A stretch of DNA of 64,000 nt from Rariglobus hedericola (lineage in GTDB: Bacteria > Verrucomicrobiota > Verrucomicrobiia > Opitutales > Opitutaceae). Below the pieces are notes generated by a model that was given only the letters and a program-made list of their open reading frames with translations, did no database searches and was not told the DNA's origin. The stretch is from the NCBI RefSeq assembly GCF_007559335.1, contig NZ_VMBG01000002.1, positions 434,001 to 498,000 of the forward strand, read 5' to 3'. Positions 32,502 through 55,385 of this stretch are shown here, in pieces. Within the stretch, counting starts at the first letter, position 1; every line of letters starts with the position of its first letter. A program made the position numbers and the translations under genes.

Positions 32502-34040
32502 ATGCCCGCCGATTCCTACGAGCGTCTCGTCACTCACCTTAAGCGCGCCCATACGCTGGGCACGGTTGCCGGTCTCTTGGGATGGGACGAGCAGGTCAAC
32601 CTACCTGCCGACAGCGCCGACCAGCGCGCCGAGCAATCCGCGCTCCTCGCCGAACTCCAGCACGCCGCCGCAACCGCCCCTGAAATCGGCGATCTTTTAA
32701 ACCAACTTGAACAGCCGGTTTGTAACTTATTAAGTTACAAACCGGCTGGGGGCTCGGCTGAAAATGCGGATACTGCTGATCGCGCGGTGGTGATTCGTGA
32801 GGCGCGGAAAGACTATGATCGTGTGGTGAAACTCCCGGCGGACTTCGTGGCCGAGAAGGCCCGGCTCTCCAGCGCGGCTTATCACGGGTGGGCCGCGGCT
32901 AAGACGCGGTCGGACTTTTCGGCGTTTGCTCCCTTTCTCGAAAAACACCTCGCACTCGCAAAACAGGAAGCTGCCTATCTCGGCTGGGGTGATCGGGCCT
33001 ATGACTACGCGATCGACAAACACGATCCGGGCATGACGGCGGAAAAACTCACCGCATTGTTCACGGAGTTGAAGGCCGGTCTCGTCCCTCTGGTGCGTGC
33101 CATCGCCGCGTCTCCCGTGCGCGCCCGCACGGATATTTTCAAAGGCTTCCCGATCGCGGAGCAGCGGGAATTCCTGCGCGATGTCACCGAACGACTCGGC
33201 TTTAACTACCGCCGCGGACGCATCGATGTGTCCCTCCATCCCTTCTGCGAAGGCTCGGGGGCGGACATCCGCATGACCACGCGCTTCGATGCGGATAACC
33301 CGCTCGATTCACTCTTCTCGTCGATCCACGAAACCGGGCACGGACTCTATGAACAAGGTCTGCCGCTCGCCGCGCAAGGCACTCCGCTCGGTCAAAACGC
33401 CGGCATGGGCGTGCACGAATCGCAAAGTCGCTTGTGGGAAAACCAAGTGTCGCGCAGCCGTGCATTCTGGGCGTTTTTCGAGCCGCGCTTTCGCGAAAAA
33501 TTCCCCGCGCAACTCGCCGCCGTGTCGTCCGAAGAACTGTATCTCGCGGTCAACGAAGTCGCGCCCACGCTCATCCGTGTCGATAGCGACGAGGTGCACT
33601 ACAACCTGCACATCCTGCTGCGCTTCGAGCTCGAGCGCCGGCTGTTTGCGGGCGAACTCACGGTGGGCGAACTGCCGGCCGCATGGAATGCGTTGTCGCA
33701 GGAATTGCTGGGGCTCACGCCGACGAGCGACAAGGTTGGCGTGCTCCAAGACGTGCATTGGTCCGGCGGGGCGTTCGGATATTTCCCGAGTTACTGCCTA
33801 GGCAACATGATTGCCGCGCAATTGTGGTTCACGGTGCGGGCGAAATTTCCGGAGCTGGATGCGGACTTTGAGCAGGGTGATTTCTCGCGCCTGTTGGGCT
33901 GGTTGCGCACAAACATCCACGAGCAGGGGCGCCGCTACGAAACCCTCGAACTGGTGCGCCGTGTAACCGGCGAGGAGCTCACGCCGAAATACCTGCTGCG
34001 CTATTTGCAAGAACGGTATGCACCGCTGTATTTGAAATAA
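32502..34040 (+). CDS. M32-family metallocarboxypeptidase with inserted palindrome
   Basis: About 512 residues from the ATG at 32502 (a GTG at 32475 would add nine). Zinc carboxypeptidase of the Taq type: HExxH in SIHETGHGLYEQGLP (about 275), the downstream Glu in MGVHESQSRLWENQV, and IRVDSDEVHYNLHILLRFELE, all typical. TTG-ACC (32468) and AATCTT (32491) give a promoter whose start site would fall on the ATG. Between the N-terminal helices, about residues 71-82 (QPVCNLLSYKPAGG) are encoded by a perfect 37-bp palindrome, which appears to be an in-frame insertion; the catalytic part is intact. Confidence 0.93.
   Translation: MPADSYERLVTHLKRAHTLGTVAGLLGWDEQVNLPADSADQRAEQSALLAELQHAAATAPEIGDLLNQLEQPVCNLLSYKPAGGSAENADTADRAVVIREARKDYDRVVKLPADFVAEKARLSSAAYHGWAAAKTRSDFSAFAPFLEKHLALAKQEAAYLGWGDRAYDYAIDKHDPGMTAEKLTALFTELKAGLVPLVRAIAASPVRARTDIFKGFPIAEQREFLRDVTERLGFNYRRGRIDVSLHPFCEGSGADIRMTTRFDADNPLDSLFSSIHETGHGLYEQGLPLAAQGTPLGQNAGMGVHESQSRLWENQVSRSRAFWAFFEPRFREKFPAQLAAVSSEELYLAVNEVAPTLIRVDSDEVHYNLHILLRFELERRLFAGELTVGELPAAWNALSQELLGLTPTSDKVGVLQDVHWSGGAFGYFPSYCLGNMIAAQLWFTVRAKFPELDADFEQGDFSRLLGWLRTNIHEQGRRYETLELVRRVTGEELTPKYLLRYLQERYAPLYLK
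32712..32748. repeat. Perfect 37-bp palindrome within the M32 peptidase gene
   Basis: CAGCCGGTTTGTAACTTA (32712-32729), central T, TAAGTTACAAACCGGCTG (32731-32748): 18 pairs without mismatch. The inner 23 bases recur with one arm mismatch at 55275-55297 in an intergenic region. Confidence 0.95.
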
Positions 34041-55136: not shown

Positions 55137-55385
55137 GAGAGAAAGGCAGTTATGGGGAGTGAGGGGCTGGCTGGCTATCAATTCTTCCATAATCTACCAG
55201 AAGCTACCAATAAATTTCACGAAGCCGGGATTATGGGTGATCTTAACACTTTTTGGGGCAAGGAGTAATGCAGGTTTGTAACTTATTAAGTGACAAATTG
55301 GATTTGGAGTTGGGTTGGGTAGGGTGAGGTGTTCGGCGGGTGGAATCATTCTTCGCCGTCGAAGTAGCTGACTTCGTTAACTTTG
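55137..55385. other. Intergenic region between mqo and the FAH-family gene
   Basis: About 250 bases without a supported gene. It should hold the mqo promoter near 55140-55200 on the minus strand, but no convincing -35/-10 pair is seen. A copy of the 23-base palindrome core lies at 55275-55297. Confidence 0.6.
55275..55297. repeat. Imperfect copy of the M32-gene palindrome core
   Basis: TTTGTAACTTA, central T, TAAGTGACAAA: identical to the inner 23 bases of the element at 32712-32748 except for one base (T to G in the right arm). Flanks differ and no longer pair. Confidence 0.85.

Follow-up and report, generated by a model that had tools for sequence, protein, structure and literature searches.

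A perfect palindrome in frame in the M32 carboxypeptidase gene of Rariglobus hedericola belongs to a repeat family whose core tracks the genome more than the site

Introduction

How does a perfect palindrome come to lie in frame within a peptidase gene, and what preserves it there? The question is raised by 37 bp at positions 32712-32748 of the window, the 64,000-nucleotide stretch of the Rariglobus hedericola genome analysed here. These bases form 18-bp arms about one central T and fall within the gene of an M32 carboxypeptidase (32502-34040, plus strand), where residues 71-82 of the protein (QPVCNLLSYKPA) appear as an insertion. A first-pass annotation, made from the letters alone, took the stretch to be a small mobile palindrome able to live inside genes, comparable in behaviour to the Rickettsia palindromic elements (RPEs), and pointed to the number of copies in the genome, their division between genes and intergenic sites, and a REP-associated tyrosine transposase (RAYT) as features to look for.

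An insertion in the M32 gene

The frame at 32502-34040 matches Peptidase_M32 in a profile search with an E-value of 6e-168 and the symmetry of the palindrome within it is perfect, which bears out the described 18-bp-arm palindrome and its in-frame place within the gene of an M32 carboxypeptidase. The 37 bp, as single-stranded DNA, are predicted to form a hairpin with a folding energy of -19 kcal/mol (z -12), a stability equalled by 0 of 200 shuffles. The centre is a conserved 23-bp core (32719-32741, plus strand) in a dialect termed the T type, with GTAAC. Alignments of copies set this core apart from a left outer arm (32712-32718) and a right outer arm (32742-32748), its reverse complement, both of which vary among copies and species and are fully paired in the M32 copy. 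A second copy of the core, with one mismatch to that at 32719-32741, lies at 55275-55297 (plus strand) between two minus-strand genes, as predicted by a home-made codon model. Shuffled versions of the window averaged 0.00 matches, and the claim that the core recurs in the window holds.

That the palindrome had been inserted was at first a proposal drawn from family knowledge, and alignments agree with it. In the genus alignment, which sets the genome of the window (G000) beside 12 congeners (G001-G012), the M32 site carries a core that is intact or almost so in G000, G001, G002, G004, G009, G010 and G011 and a degenerate one in G012. The core is missing in 5 of the 12 congeners (G003, G005, G006, G007 and G008) and in all the outgroup genera aligned at this gene (G013, G017, G019 and G021). 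Among the matches listed, and measured by extrapolated gaps, the site is 42 nt shorter than in G000 in G003, G005, G006 and G007 (17 vs 59) and 51 nt shorter in G008 (8 vs 59); in G001, G004, G010 and G011 it is 21 nt longer than in the first four of these. Eight solved M32 sequences matched the protein; in the two alignments examined, the palindrome stretch falls opposite gaps of 15 residues in 5giv and 8 in 7a03. On these alignments, residues 71-82 are a derived insertion. For the peptidase the palindrome is most likely a tolerated passenger that adds no new function. No clean recent insertion with a target duplication was seen, nor, at the M32 site and the sampled coding sites, an empty site close enough to reveal one. 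In G009, about 78 extra bases stand beside the palindrome of the M32 gene (L098).

A family of copies with two main types

At up to three mismatches, the whole genome of G000 contains 62 forward and 62 reverse matches to the core; since the core is nearly its own reverse complement, these amount to about 62 copies. A reversed control gave 0, and the genome-wide copies sought by the first-pass annotation are thus present. For the alignment of copies, 200 were taken from seven genomes: 60 from G000, 45 (of about 60) from G002, 35 (of about 82) from G010, 34 (of about 71) from G004, 24 from G001 and one each from G009 and G011, copies flanked by less than about 60 nt on one side or the other being excluded. 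The consensus of the core is TGTMACN-TATTA-NGTKACA, and a copy spans about 25-41 bp with its outer arms; on both sides conservation stops no more than about 12 nt from the core, and homology around copies is weak past about 30 nt. There are two main types, T (GTT-TGTMACT..AGTKACA-AAC) and C (AAG-TGTCACC..GGTGACA-CTT), which differ at four positions per half, and a G type found mostly outside the genus. G000 also holds half-changed copies, TTTGTCAC...GTTACAAA.

Within the genus, copy number is very uneven, with roughly 82 in G010 and 0 in G003 and G008. In the family, 110 of 200 genomes contain the general core pattern, as do 36 of 49 genera (reversed control, 1 hit overall), a very patchy distribution in which single hits may be chance. 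Matches to a 17-bp core in a wider genome-contig collection (32 stretches, one match each, in scattered genomes) were taken as chance, near relatives of the window's genome being possibly missing from that collection. Rfam, searched with four loci, returned 13 matches, all below the gathering scores and mostly to microRNA models, which were likewise taken as chance matches to hairpins.

Copies in G000 are clustered: among 57 copies on contigs C1-C3, to which the counts of clustering and orientation refer (three copies on contig C4 being excluded), 12 gaps between neighbours are shorter than 2.5 kb, where 2.2 are expected and the maximum in 2000 simulations was 9. Some cores form inverted pairs 44-66 bp apart, and many listed copies stand alone. 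G002 has arrays with a period of about 90 bp and a C-type palindrome in each unit (L104, 1035-1323; L105, 1051-1250), and four copies of the L104 array lie within one long predicted open frame.

Counting copies in genes and between them, as the first-pass annotation had suggested, places 18 of the 60 mapped G000 copies in genes according to the home-made codon model. Those outside genes lie between tandem genes (21 antisense and 2 sense), convergent genes (12) or divergent genes (6), with one at an edge. Across the seven genomes, with orthologous copies counted separately, 57 of 59 coding copies encode a loose CxLLSxK-like peptide motif, and the remaining two, L128 and L149, seem to be orthologous copies of a single site. 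The reading frame of coding copies is forced, because other frames of the usual core hold stops. The M32 gene was identified by family search and the other hosts were named by eye: we take them to include TrpE-like, TatD-like, YjeF-like, amidase and epimerase genes and, in G002 (L115), UvrA. The view of the palindrome as an RPE-like element living in genes therefore stands in so far as it is a genome-wide repeat, found in frame in many unrelated genes. The mobility attributed to it fares less well; many sites are common to congeners, and it is the sequence type that changes there.

Shared positions and changing sequence

Twelve G000 sites were drawn at random, neighbouring protein segments were searched in the 12 congeners, and the four coding sites were aligned. 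In an Ogt-like gene, the same codon position holds a T-type palindrome in G000, G010 and G007 and a C-type palindrome in G001, G002, G004 and G011; the copy in G012 is C-type and partly decayed, G009 has a third palindrome, and in G003, G005, G006 and G008 the site is decayed or unrecognisable. T and C also alternate among congeners at a site in an amidase gene, with vestiges in G008, G011 and G012, and at the sites in a helicase and an epimerase gene some congeners have a copy, the others being empty or impossible to align there.

Two tests compared orthologous copies with random copies of the same two genomes. The first (169 pairs) left the distances from flank to element unchecked, and the second, strict test accepted only collinear pairs in which both flanks stand at matching distance from the element (82 pairs); the stretches of two intergenic sites were used in both. 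In the strict test, orthologous copies are identical at a mean of 20.8 of 25 positions as against 20.2 for random copies, and type differs in 29 of the 82 pairs and is kept in 53. Memory of the site is visible in the pairs G000-G004 (22.8 vs 20.3 random), G001-G010 (23.2 vs 21.3) and G004-G010 (22.8 vs 21.1); G000-G002 gave 18.3 vs 15.8 on 3 pairs, and G002-G004 18.0 vs 18.9. With distances unchecked, the first test gave 16.9 of 25 vs 15.8 for G000-G002 and 21.1 vs 21.1 for G004-G010, and placed G004-G011, G001-G002 and G001-G011 above random and G004-G007 and G001-G007 below it. Copies within one genome average 22.9 in G000 and 23.4 in G002. For the 77 same-type orthologous pairs of the first set, identity is 90.6% in the core, 64.7% in the flanks and 50.7% in the arms, where the core figure, and with it the contrast between core and flanks, is inflated because copies were collected by their core. 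Collectively, many positions are common to genomes, the arms drift, and the core tracks the genome more than the site, albeit incompletely.

Pairing between the arms

The outer arm from k3 to k9 is bimodal among copies, being either fully paired or near random, and the palindrome of the M32 gene belongs to the fully paired class. Once copies with identical arms had been merged (45 to 41 in G002, 35 to 34 in G010), full pairing over k3-k9 was found in 10 of 60 copies in G000 (0.6 in shuffles), 7 of 41 in G002 (0.4), 6 of 34 in G004 (0.3), 3 of 34 in G010 (0.6) and 0 of 24 in G001 (0.0). Position by position, pairing exceeds that of shuffles (p < 0.05, uncorrected for 45 tests) at k3 and k4 in all three copy sets, at k7 in two of the three and at k9 in two (G000 and G002), and at k5, k6 and k8 in none of the three; in the pooled set, covariation at k1-k3 is partly the difference between T and C types itself. 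This covariation of the arms fits better with a process that acts at the level of the hairpin than with two independent half-sites.

An insertion sequence that duplicates hairpins

An independent hint about structure comes from G002, which has 16 nearly identical transposase genes of one insertion sequence (IS), with a DDE_5 domain (L337, L340, L342, L344, L346 and L348-L358). The transposase scores 44.3 bits against PF13546 (cut-off 27) and 156.1 bits against NF049999 (cut-off 170), and is thus IS701-like at a level below the NCBIfam cut-off. Between the ends found, the element is 1,820 bp long in fifteen copies and 2,937 bp in the sixteenth. Eleven of the 16 copies are bordered by exact target duplications, which by eye are hairpins of 17-43 bp, of several unrelated kinds; at four of the 16 copies the duplicated hairpin (43, 37, 35 and 21 bp) is a member of the palindrome family, and at the remaining five a simple test found no exact duplication. 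If the element inserts at the base of an extruded hairpin, duplications as long as the hairpin would follow, and the duplication of whole hairpins suggests that the repeat is structured in living cells. In the available text of PMC2266710, members of IS701 have 4-bp duplications, which the G002 element, with its 17-43 bp, does not share. ISPsy8 likewise uses a repeat as its target and is described in the accessible part of PMC1525189 as duplicating 3 bp at the symmetry axis of REP hairpins, whereas the G002 element duplicates the whole hairpin. A genome search of G000 found no copy of this IS. Several of the IS copies (L340, L350, L351, L353, L357 and L358) are adjoined by another palindrome, close to CCTTGAGCTCACGCTCAAGG.

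What keeps the core

We propose, at a probability of roughly 0.45, that these palindromes form a REP- or RPE-like family whose core is kept, and perhaps overwritten in place, by a factor acting in trans. The description of the family is solid; the mechanism is what we infer from it. A factor is invoked because, in a dead element evolving neutrally, core and arms would decay equally fast. Such a protein would recognise the core as a hairpin or cruciform and would hold it in the current spelling of the genome, most likely by re-inserting or copying an active version into existing sites, the founding of new sites being a rarer route. Copies in genes would survive where a loop tolerates the extra residues (7 to 14 in M32) and the stop-free frame is used, and sites would decay once the factor was lost. 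No mobilising or binding protein for the core was found.

Maintenance in trans is favoured by the number of copies, the paired arms, the switches of type and the vestiges at fixed codons, the type changes in 29 of 82 pairs, the small margin of orthologous over random copies, the core identity of same-type pairs, the targeting by the IS and the clustering. Overwriting or re-insertion as its means falls somewhat short of an even chance. We favour it over drifting binding sites on two grounds: T and C, with four differences per half, nevertheless swap at a single codon, and positions in the arms covary. The fuller version, in which the factor would home into existing copies, those in coding sequence included, so that positions pass vertically, the sequence changes largely in concert and loss of the factor leaves fossils, we consider rather unlikely. 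Type is kept in 53 of the 82 strict pairs, which speaks against overwriting, as do the half-changed copies of G000, which suggest stepwise change at some sites; against a process at hairpin level stands the fact that fully paired arms are a minority, with none among the 24 copies of G001.

A serious alternative, though on balance a doubtful one, is that the cores are duplex binding sites of a dimeric protein, whether one that organises the nucleoid or chromosome or one with a large regulon, and that its specificity drifted while the sites followed by point mutation and selection. Such a history would suit the conservation of the core above its flanks at shared sites (inflated by the way copies were collected), a dialect that is genome-wide, half-changed palindromes in G000, vestiges in congeners with few or no copies, and the memory that collinear copies retain; indeed, the greater site memory in the strict test moved weight from overwriting toward binding sites. 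Orientation also tracks GC skew, the strand with the central T being the G-rich strand at 42 of 57 copies (p 5e-4; 33 of 45 clusters), which is weak evidence and possibly an effect of composition, because orientation rests on one central base. Separate contacts with two half-sites, by contrast, need no covariation, yet k3, k4 and k7 covary between arms though they vary among copies, and stepwise drift sits uneasily with types that differ at four positions per half and nevertheless replace each other at one site. The neighbouring genes, by eye, looked functionally unrelated, and a regulon was judged unlikely on this mixture of functions. G003 and G008 are without any copy, so any role of the core is dispensable.

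It is improbable that the palindromes are REPs or REPINs moved by a RAYT. Size, copy number, hairpin form and occasional inverted pairs would all agree with this, as would the sites between unidirectional or convergent genes and the large intragenic fraction, which resemble those of REPs in the available text of PMC3733652, and PF01797 is matched in 13 of the 15 genomes searched (43 matches). The tags of such repeats, however, are not enriched: within 15 nt of the core, GTAG occurs at 6 and CGTC at 28 of 200 copies, as against 17 and 47 in control stretches. Among the 43 matches, 30 loci were scanned (the gene and up to about 1.5 kb a side) and none held a clear copy, the PF01797 loci yielding at up to two substitutions only two non-conforming core hits (L200 and L201). 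Nor does presence of the transposase track copy number, for G010 shows only partial PF01797 matches, whereas in G003, which lacks copies, a 319-aa frame matches. A different inverted repeat, which by eye begins GGGGTCAG, borders the RAYT-like gene of G000. The REP-associated tyrosine transposase that the first-pass annotation had looked to is thus not borne out as a partner of the palindrome. The G000 gene itself (L072, about 915-1935) lies between inverted repeats GGGGTCAGGCCGAGTATT..., unrelated to the palindrome by eye and like the GGGGWSAS repeats in the accessible part of PMC3733652.

Still less probable is selection acting locally on transcription terminators or mRNA hairpins. Some fully paired copies between convergent genes do run into T-rich stretches (e.g., L010 and L024), but only 44 of 200 copies have TTTT in the 24 nt beyond the core on one side or the other; moreover, conservation falls on the core and not on the stem in general, and the intragenic copies, 18 of 60 in G000 with that of M32 among them, led us to reject terminators as the sole explanation for coding copies. 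The reading of the stretch as normal M32 sequence, or as a palindrome that arose by chance, has practically no prospect of being right, for although the frame is open throughout and the M32 loop is variable, it is refuted by the copy count and by homologues that lack the stretch, as well as by the empty shuffles and the z-score of the hairpin.

Comparison with known palindromic repeats

Like REPs and REPINs, which are hairpins of 20-40 bp, the palindromes are short hairpins in many copies per genome, some in inverted pairs, mainly between unidirectional or convergent genes and with intragenic copies. REPs of the GTAG/CGTC kind carry a tag at one end, which is not a feature of this family, and in the GTAG class the RAYT gene is flanked by the repeat, an arrangement absent from the 30 scanned loci of the 43 PF01797 matches. 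The family is further set apart from REPs by a dialect that tracks the genome more than the site and by the lack of a linked tyrosine transposase among those loci. In the available text of PMC3733652, intragenic GTAG repeats are reported most of all from O. terrae, where a REP has hit uvrA; the palindrome in G002 (L115) lies in a gene named as UvrA by reading the protein. The same text places different REPs at about the same recB site in two Xanthomonas species, a possible parallel to the switches of type, and the present family may be identical to a repeat family described there. The literature titles and abstracts searched gave no description of the family, which an existing survey of bacterial and archaeal REPs may hold. 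No parent element of the kind expected for a MITE was found.

RPEs, as described in the available parts of PMC10969869 and PMC3733652, are palindromic and occur in frame in numerous protein genes of unrelated kinds, where they encode a recurring peptide. The position in frame in unrelated genes is shared by the palindromes, with their loose motif in 57 of 59 coding copies, whereas the size is not, the RPEs of the reviews, as far as these are available, measuring about 150 bp and the palindromes 25-41 bp. RPE-4 and RPE-6, by the same sources, are CGTC-tagged repeats, and this tag is not enriched here. Unlike RPEs, the palindromes have a documented change of type at shared sites.

Since sites are shared and yet spelled in a way particular to each genome, it seems that the palindromes are not dead relics and not just new arrivals either, but are maintained or rewritten, within genes as elsewhere. 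The persistence of palindromic repeats in bacteria thereby becomes a question that can be tested through a search for the factor. Rickettsia is the best-known source of palindromic repeats in frame, and a survey of tagged families that of REPs within genes; the family described here can be traced over a whole genus.
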